Part shown: one piece after another, positions 3,954 to 47,459 of the stretch
How the letters are laid out: each line of letters opens with the position of its first letter
Numbering within the stretch: the stretch's first letter is position 1
From: Mariniflexile litorale
GTDB lineage: Bacteria > Bacteroidota > Bacteroidia > Flavobacteriales > Flavobacteriaceae
Length of the DNA: 64,000 bases
Direction: 5' to 3'
Assembly (NCBI RefSeq): GCF_031128465.2
Contig: NZ_CP155618.1
Location: 505,501-569,500 of the forward strand
The notes under the pieces: generated by a model
The model's database searches: none
Seen by the model: only the letters and a program-made list of their open reading frames with translations
What the model was told of the DNA's origin: nothing
Position numbers and translations under genes: made by a program

Positions 3954-5276
3954 ATGTACGACAACCTGATTCTAATTCTTGCCATATTAATCTCCGGAGG
4001 CCTTGGTGCTTATATTGGCATGACCATTACCAAATTAAAAAGTAAAAGCGAGCAAAGCACTTTAGAAGAACGTCAAAGTCAGTTAAACACAACCATTAAC
4101 GACCTAAAACAAAATATTGATAAAATTGAAAAAGATCGTGAAGACATTCGTCGTGAAAAAGAGTTTTTAAATTCTGAATTAACCAGAAAAAATACCGAAT
4201 ACGAAAACCTACAACAAATAAGTTCTAAACGCGAACAAGAAATAGAAGTACGCCAAGAACAACTGCGTAAAGATTTTGAATTGTTGGCTAATAAAATTTT
4301 AGAAGAAAAATCGGAGAAATTCACCACTAAAAACAAAGAAAACTTAGACGCTATTTTAAAACCACTTCAAGAGAAAATAAAAACCTTTGAAGATAAAGTC
4401 GATTTAACTCAAAAAGAAAGCATCAGCATGCATTCGGCTTTAAAAGAGCAATTGCTGGGATTAAAAGACTTGAACCAACAAATGACAAAAGAGACCACCA
4501 ACTTAACCCGAGCCTTAAAAGGTGATAGTAAAATGCAAGGGAATTGGGGCGAATTGGTTTTAGAACGCGTGTTAGAAAAATCGGGGTTAGAAAAAGATAG
4601 AGAATATTTTGTACAACAAAGTTTTACATTGGCAGATGGGTCTCGTGTTTTGCCAGACGTGGTTTTAAATCTTCCCGATGGAAAGAAAATGATTATTGAT
4701 AGTAAAGTATCGTTAACCGCTTATGAGCGTTTAGTTAATGCTGAAGACGATGAGAAACCTCTATTTTTAAAAGCACACGTAAACTCGATTAAAAAACACG
4801 TAGACCAACTTTCAGAAAAAAATTATCAAGATTTATATGATATTGAATCACCTGATTTTGTTTTAATGTTTATCCCTATAGAACCTGCTTTTGCAGTAGT
4901 TGTAAATGAGGATAATAGTATTTACAACAAAGCTTTTGAGAAGAATATTGTAATAGTAACACCTTCTACCCTATTGGCCACTTTACGTACTATTGACAGT
5001 ATGTGGAACAATGAAAAACAACAACAAAACGCTATTGAAATTGCAAGACAAGCTGGAGCACTTTACGATAAATTTGAAGGTTTGATGAGTGATTTAATTG
5101 GTGTTGGCAAAAAAATTGACGCTACAAAATCAGATTATAATTCAGCAATGAATAAATTATTTGAAGGAAACGGAAACCTCATTATTAGTGTTGAAAAACT
5201 AAAAACATTAGGAGCCAAAGCAAAAAAAGCATTGCCCGAAGCTATTATAAAACGTGCTAGTAAAGAAATTGAATAA
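3954..5276 (+). CDS. rmuC: DNA recombination protein RmuC
   Basis: A 440-residue RmuC-family protein. One N-terminal membrane segment (about residues 4-24) is followed by a long coiled coil (about 30-160, rich in E/K/Q heptads) and then the conserved RmuC domain: LKGDSKMQGNWGELVLERVL, then a PD-(D/E)XK-like nuclease core with LPDVVLNLPDG and MIIDSKVSLTAYER. RmuC proteins limit inversions at short repeats in E. coli and are predicted membrane-tethered nucleases. Length is normal for the family. It follows btuD by 94 bases with its own candidate promoter, and the next gene starts 13 bases after its stop. Confidence 0.92.
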   Translation: MYDNLILILAILISGGLGAYIGMTITKLKSKSEQSTLEERQSQLNTTINDLKQNIDKIEKDREDIRREKEFLNSELTRKNTEYENLQQISSKREQEIEVRQEQLRKDFELLANKILEEKSEKFTTKNKENLDAILKPLQEKIKTFEDKVDLTQKESISMHSALKEQLLGLKDLNQQMTKETTNLTRALKGDSKMQGNWGELVLERVLEKSGLEKDREYFVQQSFTLADGSRVLPDVVLNLPDGKKMIIDSKVSLTAYERLVNAEDDEKPLFLKAHVNSIKKHVDQLSEKNYQDLYDIESPDFVLMFIPIEPAFAVVVNEDNSIYNKAFEKNIVIVTPSTLLATLRTIDSMWNNEKQQQNAIEIARQAGALYDKFEGLMSDLIGVGKKIDATKSDYNSAMNKLFEGNGNLIISVEKLKTLGAKAKKALPEAIIKRASKEIE

Positions 5277-42220: not shown

Positions 42221-42691
42221 TTAGCTTAACCAAGCTTTCATCATCCAAACTGTTTTTTCTTGTTCTGTAATAAAATCGCTCATCATAGAGTTGGTACCTT
42301 CATCATTTGCATCACCTGATTTATCTAAAATAGCACGTTCAATTTTTAATAATTCAGTCAGCGATTCAACAATTAAAGTCACTGCTTTTTCATCTTGAGA
42401 TATATTTTTACCTACGGGTACTTGAGCATTTTCTATATAATCTGTAAAAGTATGCAGCGGTGTTTCTCCCAAAGTCAATACACGTTCGGCAATTAAATCT
42501 ACTTTCATATTTGCATCGGTATATAACTCTTCAAACTTAACATGTAGATCAAAAAATCGTTTTCCCTTTATATTCCAGTGAATACCTCTTAAATTCTGAT
42601 AATAAATTTGAAAATTAGCTAACAAGTTATTTAAATCATTTGCTAATTCTTTTGCTTTTTGAATGTCTAATCCGATACTGTTTAATTTCAT
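42221..42691 (-). CDS. dps: Dps-family ferritin-like protein
   Basis: A 156-residue Dps protein that stores iron and protects DNA by consuming peroxide. The ferroxidase site residues are visible: RGIHWNIKGKRFFDLHVKFE with the conserved HW, then ELYTDANMKVDLIAER. Length and four-helix pattern are normal; there is no long basic N-terminal tail for DNA binding. It is divergent from oxyR, so peroxide control of dps by OxyR is likely. Confidence 0.92.
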   Translation of the reverse strand: MKLNSIGLDIQKAKELANDLNNLLANFQIYYQNLRGIHWNIKGKRFFDLHVKFEELYTDANMKVDLIAERVLTLGETPLHTFTDYIENAQVPVGKNISQDEKAVTLIVESLTELLKIERAILDKSGDANDEGTNSMMSDFITEQEKTVWMMKAWLS

Positions 42692-42795
42692 AATAAGTTA
42701 TATTTTATTCTACCACAAATTTAATCTATAATTAACAGCAATATCGATAGGTTTTATTGATAGTTTTTATATTTTTATAAGCTAAATTGATACAC
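42692..42795. promoter_or_regulatory. dps-oxyR divergent control region
   Basis: The 104-base gap between the divergent dps and oxyR starts. It contains ATAGGTTTTATTGATAG (42750-42766), two ATAG half-sites 13 bases apart, resembling half of the OxyR pattern ATAGnTnnnAnCTAT repeated every helical turn. Only weak support; position makes it the place to look for OxyR binding. Confidence 0.4.
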
Positions 42796-43737
42796 ATGAC
42801 CATTACGCAATTATACTATGTTTTAGCAGTAGCTGAAAACCAAAATTTCACAAGGGCAGCAGAAAAATGTTTTGTTACCCAACCTACCCTAAGTATGCAA
42901 ATACAAAAACTGGAAGAAGAACTAGATATTCTAATTTTTGATAGAAGTAAAAAACCTATAGAATTAACAGATGTGGGCAGAAAAATAGTCACCCAAGCTA
43001 GAAACATTGTAAACGAATCGTATAGAATACAAGATATTGTAGACCAGCAAAAAGGATTTATTGGTGGCGAATTTAAACTAGGTATTATACCAACGGTAAT
43101 GCCAACATTGTTACCTATGTTTTTGAAGAATTTCATAAAAAAGCATCCCAAAATAAAGCTTAAAATAGAAGAGTTAACAACCGAGGAAATTATTGAACGC
43201 TTAAAAGACGGCCATTTAGATGCTGCCATTGCCGCCACGCCTTTAGAAGATGAAAATATAAAAGAACGCGTACTTTACTTTGAACCTTTTGTGGGCTATA
43301 TTCCTAAAAACCACAGACTTCATACTAATAAAAAAATTGATGTCGCCGATTTAGATATAAGCGATATGTTACTACTTGAAGATGGGCATTGTTTTAGAGA
43401 TGGTGTTATTAATTTATGTAAAGCTTTCAAAAACCAATCCGACGAACAGTTTCAGTTAGAAAGTGGTAGTATTGAAACCTTAATAAAATTATCTAACGAA
43501 GGTTTAGGTATGACGCTTCTTCCTTATTTACACACTTTGGATATTAATGAGAAAGAAAAAGAAAACCTTCATTATTTTAATGAACCTTCTCCTGCTAGGG
43601 AAGTCAGTCTTATTTATCATAAAAGTGAATTAAAAATGCAAATCATTGAAGCTTTACAAGATGTTATATCTGGTGTGGTTCGTGGCGCTATTGCATTTCA
43701 AAATGTGAAGATTATTAGTCCGTTGCCTTCAAAATAA
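42796..43737 (+). CDS. oxyR: LysR-type peroxide sensor OxyR
   Basis: A 313-residue LysR-family regulator. The ATG at 42796 is chosen over the TTG nine bases upstream because MTITQLYYVLAVAENQNFTR is the normal family N-terminus. Helix-turn-helix at about 18-37 (TRAAEKCFVTQPTLSMQIQK). The effector domain carries both redox cysteines at Cys199 and Cys208 (HCFRDGVINLC), the same positions and spacing as in E. coli OxyR, so disulfide sensing of peroxide should be intact. Its divergent neighbour dps is a classic target. A palindromic repeat follows the gene. Confidence 0.93.
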   Translation: MTITQLYYVLAVAENQNFTRAAEKCFVTQPTLSMQIQKLEEELDILIFDRSKKPIELTDVGRKIVTQARNIVNESYRIQDIVDQQKGFIGGEFKLGIIPTVMPTLLPMFLKNFIKKHPKIKLKIEELTTEEIIERLKDGHLDAAIAATPLEDENIKERVLYFEPFVGYIPKNHRLHTNKKIDVADLDISDMLLLEDGHCFRDGVINLCKAFKNQSDEQFQLESGSIETLIKLSNEGLGMTLLPYLHTLDINEKEKENLHYFNEPSPAREVSLIYHKSELKMQIIEALQDVISGVVRGAIAFQNVKIISPLPSK

Positions 43738-43830: not shown

Positions 43831-44817
43831 TTACAACATATAATTCAAATAGAGAGAAAATTTATTTTTAGAAGTTACATTATCTCCAAAAAGGTGTTGA
43901 CTTACAGGAAACGTATAATTGGCACCGACTATAAATTTATCAATCTTGAATTCTGAACCAAATGTACCATTTACCATATTTCCATCGGTATCTGCCAGCC
44001 TTTCATTATACTGTTTAATAGAATTATAAACATCTCCTGAAATGCCTAAAAACGGACTTAAAGCCGATTTTTTAAACGGAACATTATAATACACATTGGA
44101 GGCATAACTAAATTGATTCCCGAATTGATATTCGTTTTTGTTTTCTGTTTTTAAATAATAAGTTGCCGTTGTATTAACACCCAATTGGTTTTTTGAATAC
44201 GTATGCATTAAAGAAAAAATAGCATCAACGCTTCCTGTACCAACTTGAAACCCTGGATTTATTCTGTTAGTTAAACTTTCTTCAAAAGCACCTGTTGGCA
44301 ATTTTACACCCAAGCCAACATTTAGTTGATGTCCCGAAGCTTCTCTTTCTTCATCTTCAGTATCTTCGGCTTGCTTCTTATAAAACGTCATTTTATACCA
44401 ACCTATTATTGAGGCATCACCCAACCCATTTCTACGCTCATTACTAGCTTCAAAAACTCTATTTAAATCTTGATAGGGAATTATAGCATTTAAGGAAAAA
44501 ACTTCGGTAATAGGAAGCCTTCCCCAAAGTTGATATGTATTAAAATATTCTTTACTTGTTGGTGAATTACTAAAAATACCATTTTTAGACTCAAAATTTT
44601 GATACATGTATCTTACACCTACAAAACTCACATTGCCTAAAGTTCCAAAACTGGAACTCCCACCACTGGTTGAACAACCACATAAATCACAAAAAAATTC
44701 AAACGGGTCATGATTGTGAGTTGGGTTCGTTTTAGCTTCATTCTGTAAAGGATTACATAAAAATAGTATCCCAAATAAAATTGTTTTTATATTAATATTC
44801 TGAAAATCTAACATCAT
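43831..44817 (-). CDS. Outer-membrane protein of the MbnP/MbnH locus
   Basis: A 328-residue exported protein predicted to form an outer-membrane beta barrel. After the signal segment (about 10-28) comes a His/Cys-rich stretch, HNHDPFEFFCDLCGC (His34, His36, Cys43, Cys46, Cys48), and then CSTSGGSSSFGTLGNVSFVG and amphipathic strands to the C-terminus (SLYLNYML). The N-terminal stretch could bind copper or another metal. Its start overlaps the MbnH-like gene by 26 bases, so the two are coupled. Related proteins are often named simply transporter. Function inferred only from the locus. Confidence 0.75.
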   Translation of the reverse strand: MMLDFQNINIKTILFGILFLCNPLQNEAKTNPTHNHDPFEFFCDLCGCSTSGGSSSFGTLGNVSFVGVRYMYQNFESKNGIFSNSPTSKEYFNTYQLWGRLPITEVFSLNAIIPYQDLNRVFEASNERRNGLGDASIIGWYKMTFYKKQAEDTEDEEREASGHQLNVGLGVKLPTGAFEESLTNRINPGFQVGTGSVDAIFSLMHTYSKNQLGVNTTATYYLKTENKNEYQFGNQFSYASNVYYNVPFKKSALSPFLGISGDVYNSIKQYNERLADTDGNMVNGTFGSEFKIDKFIVGANYTFPVSQHLFGDNVTSKNKFSLYLNYML

Positions 44818-45835
44818 TTAAAAATTCGTTATCTGTAAGTGTTTTTAAGAAAGCAATAATACTTTCTTTTTCATAGGCATTTAGTGTAATACCATAGGTG
44901 TTATCTGCTCTTAAAAGTAACGCATCTACATTGCCATTATCAACTGCCCCCGAATCATAAAAATCTAAAACAGCTTCCAAAGTTGCAAACCTTCCGTCGT
45001 GCATATAAGGATAGGTATGTTCAATATTCCTTAAACTAGGCACTTTAAACTTGTATAAATCATCTGAATTTTCAAAAACGGCATAACGCCCTTTATCCTC
45101 TAATTTTGGATTTATTGACAAACCATTGTTTCGATAAGATTGGTCTGAAAACAAATCGGTTGTATGACAAGATGCACATTTGTTTTGAAAAGTATTTAAA
45201 CCATCGGACTCTTTTTGAGATAGTGTTACATTATTTTCTTTTCTAATATATTTATCATATTTAGAGTTTGAAGACACCATTAAAATCATGAATTGGGACA
45301 AGGCTTTAAGCATGTTTGCTGAATTAATTTCGCCATCATCAAATGCTTTACTAAATTGCTTTTTATAGTAGGAATCTTTTTTTAATTTTTCAAGCACGTT
45401 CGATAAGGTTTCTCCCATTTCTAAATCGCTTGTTAAGGGAATTATAGGTTGAAAATCTAAATGCGTCGCTGCACCATCCCACATAAATTCTTTTTGAAAA
45501 GCTAAATTTTGAATGGGTTGTGCATTTCGTAAACCAATACCTCCATTAACGCCATGACTTAAAGTGTGCCCATGGTGCGTAAAGGCAAAAGCCTGCTCGT
45601 GACAAAAAGCACAGGGAATGGAATTGTTAGCAGATAATCTACCATCGTAAAACAATTTTTTACCCAATTCAAATCCTTCTTCTGTTAAAGGATTGTTTTC
45701 CAAATTATAAGTTATATCTGGAAAATTCGAGGGTAAATCAAACGTTAAAGGTTTAGGGACATAAACACCTTCTTCTTTTGAGCACGACATAAAAATTAAC
45801 TGAACAAAAATAATTACTAAAAGTATTTTTTTCAT
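44792..45835 (-). CDS. Di-heme cytochrome c peroxidase / MbnH-like protein
   Basis: A 347-residue lipoprotein (FMSCSK, Cys18) with two c-type heme motifs, CAFCH (75-79) and CASCH (220-224), placing it in the bacterial CcP/MauG superfamily. The block FKVPSLRNIEHTYPYMHDGR is typical. Directly upstream is an MbnP-like gene. In the characterised methanobactin system of Methylosinus, MbnH is a MauG-like di-heme enzyme that oxidises a tryptophan of MbnP to kynurenine; the pairing suggests the same here rather than peroxide removal. That is inference; classic CcpA remains the alternative. Confidence 0.87.
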   Translation of the reverse strand: MKKILLVIIFVQLIFMSCSKEEGVYVPKPLTFDLPSNFPDITYNLENNPLTEEGFELGKKLFYDGRLSANNSIPCAFCHEQAFAFTHHGHTLSHGVNGGIGLRNAQPIQNLAFQKEFMWDGAATHLDFQPIIPLTSDLEMGETLSNVLEKLKKDSYYKKQFSKAFDDGEINSANMLKALSQFMILMVSSNSKYDKYIRKENNVTLSQKESDGLNTFQNKCASCHTTDLFSDQSYRNNGLSINPKLEDKGRYAVFENSDDLYKFKVPSLRNIEHTYPYMHDGRFATLEAVLDFYDSGAVDNGNVDALLLRADNTYGITLNAYEKESIIAFLKTLTDNEFLNDVRFSEY

Positions 45836-45865
45836 TTTTAAGTTTTTATTACCAGTATAGAATAG

Positions 45866-45895
45866 CTAGGAAGTAATTTTCAAACTACTTCCTAG
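45866..45895 (-). other. Intercistronic hairpin between mbnP- and mbnH-like genes
   Basis: CTAGGAAGTA-N10-TACTTCCTAG, perfect 10-bp arms, in the 78-base gap. No T run follows on the minus strand, so it is more likely an mRNA stability or partial attenuation element than a full terminator. Confidence 0.6.
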
Positions 45896-45913
45896 TATTT
45901 CCTACAACACGTA

Positions 45914-46714
45914 TTAATTATTGTGTACGTGGTGTACTTCAAAAATGCCTTTTAAATTATTGGCAATAACGGGTGTTGTTTCTGCACTCGTATGTACTTG
46001 ATTGTAACCGTCGGCAAAATTCACTGATGTGGTACCATCAAAAACCTTAGAAATATCGGCTTTAATATGTATTTCTGGTTGAGCCGTTTCTCGAACCCTC
46101 ACCGTATTTGGAAATGTTAAAGTAACTTCTTTGTAATTATCTAAAGAAGTGCCGACACTTCCCATATGCAACGCCAAACTTCCATCAACAACAGCAGGAA
46201 CAGCAATTGAAGAAGAATATGTACCATCAAAACGCATAAATCGGTAACCCGTTGCCCAAGCCCACATCATACCTGCCGCTTGTGCTTGTACTAAAAAATC
46301 ACCTTGACCATCAGCTCCAAGTGCATAACGTTCTTGATCGATGCCTATACCAAATGTTACTTCGGTATAATCGGCAGCATCAACATCATTTAGTGTTATA
46401 AAAATTTCACCTGCATTATTACCATTAGCTTCGTCTACAATAAATAGGTTACTTGATGAAGGGTATGTAAAAACGTTACCTTTAGAGTCTTTAACTCTAA
46501 CGTTACTTATGATGTATTTTAAGCTAGTAAGTTTGAAAGATTCTCCATTAGATTTAGTGTATGATGTTCCAAAAATAAAATCTTGGTCGCCTACTGCATT
46601 ATCGAATTTTAAAGTTAAAGTTCCTGTTTGTCCTTCTAAATTTTCATCATCTGATGAACACGATATGATTGATACGCATAGCAACAGTGCTAACGCTATT
46701 TTCGTTATTTTCAT
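45914..46714 (-). CDS. MbnP-like metal-locus lipoprotein
   Basis: A 266-residue lipoprotein (IISCSSD, Cys19). The ATG at 46714 gives the proper signal; the frame opens 14 codons earlier without a signal-like start. The mature protein is beta-rich (TGTLTLKFDNAVGDQDFIFG) with the MbnP hallmark GMMWAWATGYRFMRFDG (Trp151, Trp153) and a His-rich C-terminus ending HHVHNN. MbnP proteins bind copper in the periplasm and carry a Trp modified by MbnH. First of the MbnP-MbnH-outer-membrane trio. Which Trp is modified cannot be told from sequence. Confidence 0.82.
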   Translation of the reverse strand: MKITKIALALLLCVSIISCSSDDENLEGQTGTLTLKFDNAVGDQDFIFGTSYTKSNGESFKLTSLKYIISNVRVKDSKGNVFTYPSSSNLFIVDEANGNNAGEIFITLNDVDAADYTEVTFGIGIDQERYALGADGQGDFLVQAQAAGMMWAWATGYRFMRFDGTYSSSIAVPAVVDGSLALHMGSVGTSLDNYKEVTLTFPNTVRVRETAQPEIHIKADISKVFDGTTSVNFADGYNQVHTSAETTPVIANNLKGIFEVHHVHNN

Positions 46715-46790
46715 GTGTTTAAAATATAATATTGAAGTGCTATTATGGGCAAGCACTAAAAAGCCTTGTAAAAAAACTAAATATTAAATG

Positions 46791-47192
46791 TTACACAATG
46801 GGAGGTTTGTAAGCAAAGGAGGTATGTAAAAAGGAATAGGTATTAGCATACCTAAACAATTCTTTTTTTGAACTATAAATAACAAGATTAGTAAAATTAA
46901 AATCTTGATGTTTAGATATATATACGGGTAGAAATGACTCAAATATAACTCTTAAAGACTTAGTACTATCATCATCATTACTAGTTGATGAATCACTGAG
47001 TTGATTTGCTAAATGGCATTTACCATTACACTGAAACTCTGGTTTATCTTTATTAACACAGTATTTTTGAATAATCGCATCTATATTCAATTCAAAATAA
47101 ACCAACTGTCCAATATAATATGCTGGACGAATGGAAAAGCAAAATAAAAGGAATATAGTAATTAACTTTTTCAGCTGTTTTATTTTTTGCAA
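46791..47192 (-). CDS. Small Cys-rich membrane-anchored protein of the metal locus
   Basis: A 133-residue protein with an N-terminal membrane or signal segment (about 9-25), then YCVNKDKPEFQCNGKCHLAN: three cysteines and a His in a C-x9-C-x3-C-H arrangement that looks like a metal site, then a Ser/Asp linker. I recall relatives near copper and heavy-metal genes in Bacteroidetes. The start is uncertain: the first in-frame start is TTG at 47192, which lies inside a -7 like TATATTTG (47197-47190); no ATG precedes the hydrophobic segment. It is 76 bases upstream of the mbnP-like gene on the same strand. Confidence 0.65.
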   Translation of the reverse strand: MQKIKQLKKLITIFLLFCFSIRPAYYIGQLVYFELNIDAIIQKYCVNKDKPEFQCNGKCHLANQLSDSSTSNDDDSTKSLRVIFESFLPVYISKHQDFNFTNLVIYSSKKELFRYANTYSFLHTSFAYKPPIV

Positions 47193-47231
47193 ATATACAA
47201 TTCAATTAAAACTACAGCCATTTATTCTCAA

Positions 47232-47260
47232 AAAAAAGCGACTGGTTAAGTCGCTTTTTT
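47232..47260. terminator. Bidirectional intrinsic terminator
   Basis: AAAAAAGCGACT-GGTTA-AGTCGCTTTTTT with long A and T runs on both sides, directly after the stop of the small gene 47262-47459. Confidence 0.88.
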
Positions 47261-47261
47261 T

Positions 47262-47459
47262 TTATAGTTTTAAATAAATCAAACATTGATTTAATTCTGG
47301 GTTTTGCTGTACAAGAGAAAGAATAAATGATTTAAGCTCTTCCAACTCATGGGGCAGTAATCGTTGACCTGCCTTTTGTACTTCTTTGCAAAACAATGAT
47401 GCGTCAAAACTCACTTTTTTGAGCACAGTTTTGGTGTAATCAAGCATTGCTCTTGCCAT
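47262..47459 (-). CDS. Small helical protein, unknown function
   Basis: A 65-residue soluble protein starting MARAMLDYTKTVLKKVSFDA and continuing with Leu/Glu-rich helices (LLPHELEELKSFI). Support for being real: ATG start, stop set directly against a strong terminator, and a typical codon pattern. I recall similar short proteins in Flavobacteriia but no function. A dedicated promoter is not evident. Confidence 0.65.
   Translation of the reverse strand: MARAMLDYTKTVLKKVSFDASLFCKEVQKAGQRLLPHELEELKSFILSLVQQNPELNQCLIYLKL

Follow-up and report, generated by a model that had tools for sequence, protein, structure and literature searches.

Within 64,000 nucleotides (nt) of the Mariniflexile litorale genome (contig NZ_CP155618.1, positions 505,501 to 569,500; hereafter the window), four minus-strand open reading frames (ORFs) follow one another in the order leader ORF, mbnP-like gene, mbnH-like di-heme gene and outer-membrane protein gene (Table 1). 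Judging from sequence comparisons, it is rather likely that these four genes constitute one operon whose first ORF encodes a cis-acting leader peptide and not a structural partner. We hold it just as likely that this leader is a nascent-chain, probably copper-sensing switch; its anatomy is visible in the alignments, and we infer the arrest, the metal and the sign of regulation. More tentatively, at slightly less than an even chance for the reading as a whole, the family may represent a phylum-wide Bacteroidota class of copper-sensing leaders unrelated in sequence to DUF2946. Such leaders would end mainly in Phe-(His/Arg/Lys)-Pro-Pro and, with the ribosome stalled, sense copper beyond the cell membrane; many of them would lie on nearly leaderless mRNAs, often with non-ATG starts, and one flavobacterial branch would use a new RNA switch governing a distinct MbnP-MbnH-CDxCGC-barrel module.

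The first ORF belongs to a previously unnamed Bacteroidota ORF family. Nine residues are invariant in a 27-row alignment: a Pro after the hydrophobic stretch, the residues of a Cys box (C-x-N...C-x-G-x-C-x-L) and a final Pro-Pro, corresponding in the window leader to C39, C49 and C53 for the cysteines and to P124-P125 for the terminal prolines. A profile built from this alignment matches 143 of 395 Bacteroidota genomes and 68 of 171 genera. We drew 100 leader loci from the listed profile matches, mostly the best per genome but sometimes two regions of one genome; they are not independent, as many come from one genus. In these loci 108 of 109 leader ORFs have a Pro-Pro within 8 residues of the C-terminus (the exception lies at 17), compared with 16 of 944 control open frames of 100-200 amino acids (aa) and 2 of 608 frames of at least 250 aa. 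The distance between Cys box and Pro-Pro is 62-73 residues in 130 of 131 leaders, and the sequence of the stretch in between is poorly conserved. All 16 possible codon pairs for Pro-Pro are used, and selection therefore appears to act on the amino acids. Upstream of the prolines, Phe occupies position -2 in 85 of 131 leaders and His, Arg or Lys position -1 in 97. Several features of the functional class of CruR/CutF-like copper leader peptides were found: an export signal (judged by eye), a Cys motif, a Pro-Pro within 15 residues of the C-terminus and a same-strand gene within 1,000 nt. Where the original prediction had seen a metal-site partner protein, the family of the first gene thus displays the anatomy of a cis-acting leader peptide instead.

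Membership in DUF2946 (PF11162) was considered for the leader and rejected, with matches in 0 of 27 leader members and none in the genome of the window. DUF2946 scores over its cut-off in 5 of 296 genomes, none of them in the family of the host, and some Bacteroidota carry DUF2946 proteins with RAPP or RGPP tails (L283, L284, L285, L287) that are separate from the leader family. At six loci (L015, L022, L081, L161, L171, L180) two leader ORFs lie less than about 1 kb apart on the same strand, the second preceding an MbnP or a TonB receptor gene. The leader of one locus of the same genus as the window (L234, G680) is identical to that of Mariniflexile gromovii (L228).

The start of the leader also needed revision. 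The listed TTG start at 47192 falls inside TATATTTG (47197-47190), a match to TAnnTTTG, which we take to be the consensus of the Bacteroidota -7 promoter element; TTG 47192 is therefore an unlikely start, and the alignment of relatives indicates the CTG at 47174. In 79 of 132 leader ORFs such an element precedes the first Cys codon by 110-180 nt, compared with a mean of 8.6 and a maximum of 17 in 100 shuffled runs. In these 79 leaders the median distance from the element to the first start candidate is 10 nt (exactly 4 nt in 16), that candidate is TTG in 27, ATG in 27, GTG in 21 and CTG in 4, and the searched stretch lacks an in-frame ATG in 45. Because the start candidates stand so near the element, many leader mRNAs probably begin at or close to the start codon. 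In the window, a 65-aa minus-strand ORF (47262-47459) is followed by a hairpin with T runs and then by the promoter element; the region holds two terminator-like sites where shuffles predict 2.0, so the match by itself is not significant.

A same-strand gene follows 107 of the 109 leaders with no antisense gene between, and the other two lie at contig ends. The gaps range from -104 to 1205 nt (median 108). Among 106 next proteins we found 46 of TonB-receptor type, 26 MbnP, 14 of YtkA type, 9 MetA-like barrels, 5 YHS lipoproteins, 2 SCO-like proteins and 4 singles. NCBIfam matches of the TonB group were discarded as evidence for copper, being non-specific. The strongest copper link for the family is a second leader in the same genome (genome positions 2016202-2016570, locus L061, 2010200-2017300), behind which stand a YtkA-like gene (under the Pfam cut-off), a TonB receptor whose best model is TonB-copper (134 bits, cut-off 472) and a predicted copper nitrite reductase (TIGR02376, 350 bits, cut-off 296) that carries a cytochrome c domain. 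An FGE-sulfatase-like gene is also present at this locus, and an ABC-2 permease-like gene ends shortly before the second leader on the same strand. The second leader has a -7 element of its own, 4 nt before its ATG.

Between leader and mbnP lies a candidate structured RNA. In six related loci an outer stem begins immediately after the stop codon of the leader and closes a few bases short of the mbnP ATG; the gap also carries an invariant ACAAGGC and an inner hairpin. Six of 17 pairs vary on both sides, a degree of covariation equalled in 0 of 500 shuffles and abolished when the partner is slid along the sequence. The covariation holds after the addition of three further rows that the model retrieved, two of them from new genomes and one a near-copy, with 94.1% of cells paired and 6 pairs and 11 cells covarying (0 of 500 shuffles) in an alignment fitted to the model. 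Comparison with Rfam gave only sub-threshold matches and no family at its gathering score. Independent finds of the model are Mariniflexile gromovii and one metagenome-assembled genome. More generally, when the opening 23 and closing 32 bases of 59 leader-MbnP gaps are taken as arms, arms from the same locus pair better than arms exchanged between loci (p 2e-4), and the rank falls in the best tenth for 16 of the 59; several loci have long stems of differing sequence and others have none. Folding of the 85 gaps of 40-250 nt (22 of 107 gaps lie outside that range) gave a modest signal, with a mean z of -1.67 and 34% below -2, against -0.30 and 5% inside the next gene and -0.30 and 7% at the leader end. 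The stretch upstream of the leader gave -0.95 and 25%, perhaps on account of terminators.

The four genes belong together as one cassette. Of 299 sampled genomes of the host's family, 139 contain MbnP. From the list of MbnP matches we chose 60 loci, not at random but spread over its top, central and lower ranges. An MbnH-type gene adjoins MbnP in 59 of them, a leader is present in 20 (19 strong matches and one weak and short, L192), and the outer-membrane gene is found in exactly the 19 loci with strong leader matches, so that the co-occurrence that the original prediction had proposed to look for is borne out. Among the 30 top MbnP loci in the family, 26 have the small leader ORF. We also scored a C-terminal His tail, [DH]H[VIT]H, in the 56 distinct MbnP proteins that the window MbnP detects in the 60 loci, and 19 carry it. 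A CDxC(G/S)C barrel follows 18 of these 19 but 1 of 37 tail-less proteins (Fisher 1.7e-12), and a leader is present at all 19 compared with 1 of 37. When 30 MbnPs from the leader-sampled loci are added, a barrel follows 31 of 33 tail-bearing and 5 of 53 tail-less proteins; in four of these five exceptions the tail has a looser form, in which HVHND follows a different residue. No barrel was counted for two tail-bearing MbnPs: at L161 the barrel lies further downstream, and at L120 its motif is CEICGC. Across loci the leader, the His tail and the barrel are therefore found together.

The MbnP-like lipoprotein matches PF20243 (E 1.3e-45, 156 bits, gathering cut-off 27) and stays below the cut-off of the NCBIfam equivalog TIGR04052 (49.7 of 140 bits), as do two relatives. 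W151 and W153 of its WxW motif are invariant across 7 aligned MbnP proteins, and all 30 of the family's best MbnP loci have WxW. We found no solved structure related to it by sequence. Its AlphaFold model (predicted local distance difference test, pLDDT, 53.6) is too poor for placing the Trp and His residues, so we claim no metal site in this protein. The di-heme protein has a CCP_MauG domain (PF03150) and two c-type haem motifs. Its top-scoring NCBIfam model is TIGR04039, MbnH, at 232 bits (cut-off 362.85), and its top solved chain is 6e1c, which scores above every peroxidase chain; the title of that entry reads only 'Di-heme enzyme', and we take it to be MbnH. These matches agree with the identities first proposed from the sequence. 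Since both proteins fall under the NCBIfam cut-offs, we call them MbnP-like and MbnH-like, and they form a branch outside the named equivalogs. In Methylosinus, MbnH reportedly converts a Trp of MbnP to kynurenine. The predicted lack of a methanobactin system also stands, in that the model of MbnB, the marker for methanobactin, has no match in the genome at E 0.01, a search that would not exclude a lone small precursor gene.

A tree of di-heme proteins (86 rows, 67 labelled and 19 unlabelled, proven CcpA sequences not being among them) places the window protein within a cassette group of MbnP-adjacent enzymes. A branch with support 100/100 sets eleven long CCP paralogs apart from the other rows. 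Assignment to the bacterial di-haem peroxidase CcpA was rejected, given the score of 6e1c and the separation from these paralogs. The original prediction was to fail if the enzyme grouped with true peroxidases and the four genes did not co-occur; it groups with the MbnP-adjacent enzymes, and the genes do co-occur. The MbnHs that stand beside WxW-less MbnPs make up a separate clade (21 labelled rows, 100/100) with L161 as one long-branched exception. Six labelled MbnHs from loci without leader, barrel and His tail nest inside the cassette group, as if the three had been lost jointly, at a support (96/78) that is below the mark. The second large MbnP-MbnH subtype of the family, without WxW, accounts for 22 of the 56 distinct MbnPs of the MbnP-sampled loci and has neither leader nor barrel (within L191-L220, for example L201-L218).

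The outer-membrane protein has no match to a Pfam family. Its model (pLDDT 68) shows a predicted barrel of about 12 strands by manual count and a low-confidence N-terminus, and its best fold matches are FapF (PDB 5o67, E 4e-12) and a COG4313 channel (PDB 4rl8, E 5e-9).

The features of the locus are collected in Table 1. All four ORFs lie on the minus strand in the order first described, with the 26-base overlap (44792-44817) between the di-heme and outer-membrane ORFs, and the motifs ascribed to them are present: KYCVNKDKPEFQCNGKCH in the small protein, WAWATGYRF and a His-rich tail in the MbnP-like lipoprotein, two CxxCH in the di-heme lipoprotein and HNHDPFEFFCDLCGC at the N-terminus of the outer-membrane protein. 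The hairpin at 45866-45895 may be a termination or processing site and could raise MbnP above MbnH in abundance. A Dps-like ferritin gene and a LysR regulator gene, a usual oxidative-stress pair, lie divergently beside the cassette at 42221-43737.

Table 1. Features of the cassette, in positions of the window.
Feature	Position	Strand	Description
Leader ORF	46791..47174	minus	127 residues; export signal, C39-x9-C49-x3-C53, C-terminal KPPIV; inferred CTG start
mbnP-like gene	45914..46714	minus	ATG start; 266-residue lipoprotein, PF20243, W151-A-W153, C-terminal VHHVHNN
mbnH-like gene	44792..45835	minus	347-residue di-heme lipoprotein, two CxxCH, CCP_MauG PF03150
Outer-membrane protein gene	43831..44817	minus	328 residues; predicted barrel, N-terminal CDLCGC
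RNA element, leader stop codon to mbnP start	46713..46793	minus	outer AU stem, invariant ACAAGGC, inner hairpin GUGCU...AGCAC
-7 promoter-like element TATATTTG	47190..47197	minus	matches TAnnTTTG; 15 nt before inferred start codon
Terminator-like hairpin, T runs on both strands	47230..47262		separates 65-aa minus-strand ORF from leader
13-pair hairpin between mbnP and mbnH	45866..45895	minus	pattern not above chance

We propose the following mechanism. The leader would be exported by Sec during its synthesis. With the last Pro-Pro at the peptidyl-transferase centre, the Cys box would stand about 66 residues back, roughly enough to be emerging past tunnel and translocon into the periplasm. Given the lengths of tunnel and translocon, a spacing of about 66 residues would reach just outside the translocon, and the 45 residues of CruR would not. 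A periplasmic metal, most likely Cu(I), may then bind the Cys box and, by altering the force on the nascent chain, lengthen or relieve the Pro-Pro arrest. The arrested or released ribosome, at the foot of the RNA stem, would set the translation of mbnP or transcription through the gap. The output would be an outer-membrane copper module made up of MbnP, an MbnH that oxidises its WxW site and a barrel with an N-terminal CxxCxC site. Our guess is that copper switches the operon off, because the downstream genes look like genes of uptake or scavenging and by analogy with CruR and with the copper-repressible CorA. Arrest may open mbnP, as proposed for CutF, or release may close it, as for CruR.

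Several observations weigh against this interpretation. Some of them concern the leader. For 131 leaders the upstream sequence was long enough to be scored; in 79 of them an open frame of at least 100 aa on the same strand ends within 300 nt upstream, and we dropped the idea that the leader is always the first gene of its operon. Such a frame ends within 100 nt in 42 of the 131, 26 of them without a -7 match. In the leaders outside the 79 the upstream frame is divergent (35) or there is none (17). These are open frames and not proven genes; their frequency nonetheless lowers our confidence slightly. Some profile matches end well short of the end of the model, and no leader of the 131 carries a RAPP or RGPP tail. 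Aligned with hhalign, the leader and DUF2946 profiles gave a probability of 0.3%, the DUF2946 side consisting of 6 rows, 2 of them under cut-off. The TonB-type models of the next proteins are not copper-specific, as 25 of the 106 match a copper model and 40 a haemoglobin model. Other points concern the RNA. Its model finds 7 of 299 genomes of the host's family, every match lying in this gap, and six of the seven supplied rows to the model while the seventh is a near-copy; the search therefore speaks for specificity and not for spread. On its own the window RNA folds no better than shuffles (z -0.72), its own stem arms show no advantage in pairing over exchanged ones (rank 0.37), and in Mariniflexile gromovii (L228) 3 pairs are broken and about 90 additional bases precede mbnP (4909-5001). 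A ribosome with both prolines in the P and A sites would cover roughly the stop codon and only abut the stem, which is compatible with either direction of the switch. Finally, we found no expression, toeprint or metal data for any member of the leader family.

The first gene could instead encode a stable periplasmic or membrane-anchored metal chaperone that gives copper to MbnP, its Pro-Pro being a structural or contact motif. This is unlikely in our view, even though an invariant Cys box with an export signal is typical of a metal site, leader ORFs adjoin genes of metal type, and many of them may sit within longer operons as a structural gene would. A stretch of about 66 residues that is poorly conserved yet near-fixed in length would be odd in a folded chaperone, and the Pro-Pro keeps a near-fixed place before the stop codon. 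The same short ORF stands before quite different proteins, its start codon is often weak and its 5' leader almost absent, and in close relatives a structured gap follows it.

An arrest peptide need not sense copper. A leader that monitors export or redox state, like SecM or VemP, would share the Pro-Pro C-terminus and the export signal common to Sec monitors; its Cys residues could respond to the disulfide state, and a di-heme enzyme is part of the operon. The neighbours are nevertheless MbnP, SCO-like and YHS proteins and, in the genome of the window, a copper nitrite reductase, and no Sec gene is among the matches listed for the next proteins (the 25 commonest Pfam and 25 commonest NCBIfam families), which makes this quite unlikely. 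Very unlikely, to our mind, is an ordinary MbnP-MbnH cassette under a conventional transcription factor, with a drifting small ORF and a stem that is an unrelated terminator or processing site. The weakness of the window stem when taken alone and the narrowness of the RNA family agree with it, but the recurrence of the small ORF at the best MbnP loci and of its family in the genomes of the phylum, both counted above, does not, and an ORF whose ends are invariant while its middle is free is not drifting.

If the copper-sensing leader is real, its Bacteroidota version would mean that nascent-peptide copper sensing has more than one origin or has diverged until no longer recognisable, and that MbnP-MbnH is under its control. 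The invariant ends of the leader, the near-fixed spacing and the covarying RNA make the idea directly testable. The sequence of the leader family can also be used to find metal operons in a phylum with widespread MbnP.

The closest known systems are CruR and CutF, exported leaders with Cys residues, a C-terminal Pro-Pro and copper-responsive downstream expression (PMC9426467, PMC9973294). CruR of Bordetella pertussis (Bp2923, DUF2946) is likewise a small exported first ORF of its operon with a Cys metal motif and a Pro-Pro near the C-terminus at a fixed distance from that motif, it heads TonB and MbnPH-like operons, and copper lowers expression downstream of it (PMC9426467). It differs in having CXXC instead of C-x9-C-x3-C, a spacing of 45 instead of 62-73 residues and RAPP where the present tail has mostly Phe at -2 and His, Arg or Lys at -1; a 162-nt gap and Rho termination are further features of CruR (PMC9426467). 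The leader family has no profile similarity to the small DUF2946 set, and the taxa named for CruR are alpha-, beta- and gammaproteobacteria, a few Planctomycetes, Firmicutes and Deinococcus (PMC9426467). Its arrest occurs with the two prolines in the P and A sites (PMC12992588). CutF of Rhodobacter capsulatus resembles the leader in its CxxxC motif, Sec signal, Pro-rich C-terminus and a gap stem covering the start of the next gene, but stands before a multicopper oxidase and is switched on by copper (PMC9973294). The CutF tail alone causes no arrest. In list D of that study Bacteroidota make up 19% of 5,334 CutF-like proteins, so relatives of the present leader may be among them; the main text does not mention MbnP, and in the portions accessible we saw no test of a Bacteroidota member (PMC9973294).

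A survey of RAPP/RGPP sequences described upstream ORFs (uORFs) with C-terminal Pro-Pro arrest before metal genes, those of copper-related genes occurring in various lineages but not, for example, in Bacillota or Bacteroidota, and the TonB-related class occurring throughout Gram-negatives (PMC12992588); the tail of the present family differs (RAPP or RGPP in 0/131). The uORFs of Bacteroidota secA and secDF, proposed to be arrest peptides, likewise end in a conserved proline (in NSP or NAP), but it is a single one and Sec genes lie downstream (PMC10987492). As for the structural genes, methanotroph MbnP and MbnH form a similar adjacent pair with WxW in MbnP (PMC3621798), and the di-heme partner of the window is closest to 6e1c; the window pair differs in falling under the NCBIfam equivalog cut-offs, in a genome lacking an MbnB match, and in having the HVHN tail, CDxCGC barrel and leader in addition. 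CorA-CorB and MopE-SACCP of methanotrophs likewise place a copper-binding surface protein beside a MauG-like enzyme (PMC3621798, PMC3912023) and are copper-repressible (PMC3621798). FapF and the COG4313 channels share the fold predicted for the barrel at 11-14% identity, with a model of moderate confidence (pLDDT 68). The leader family, its link with MbnP in Bacteroidota, the CDxCGC barrel and the RNA element are not described in the literature searched, which comprised few subscription papers and no supplements. The regulatory logic is already known from CruR and CutF in proteobacteria, and Bacteroidota CutF-like proteins are already listed.

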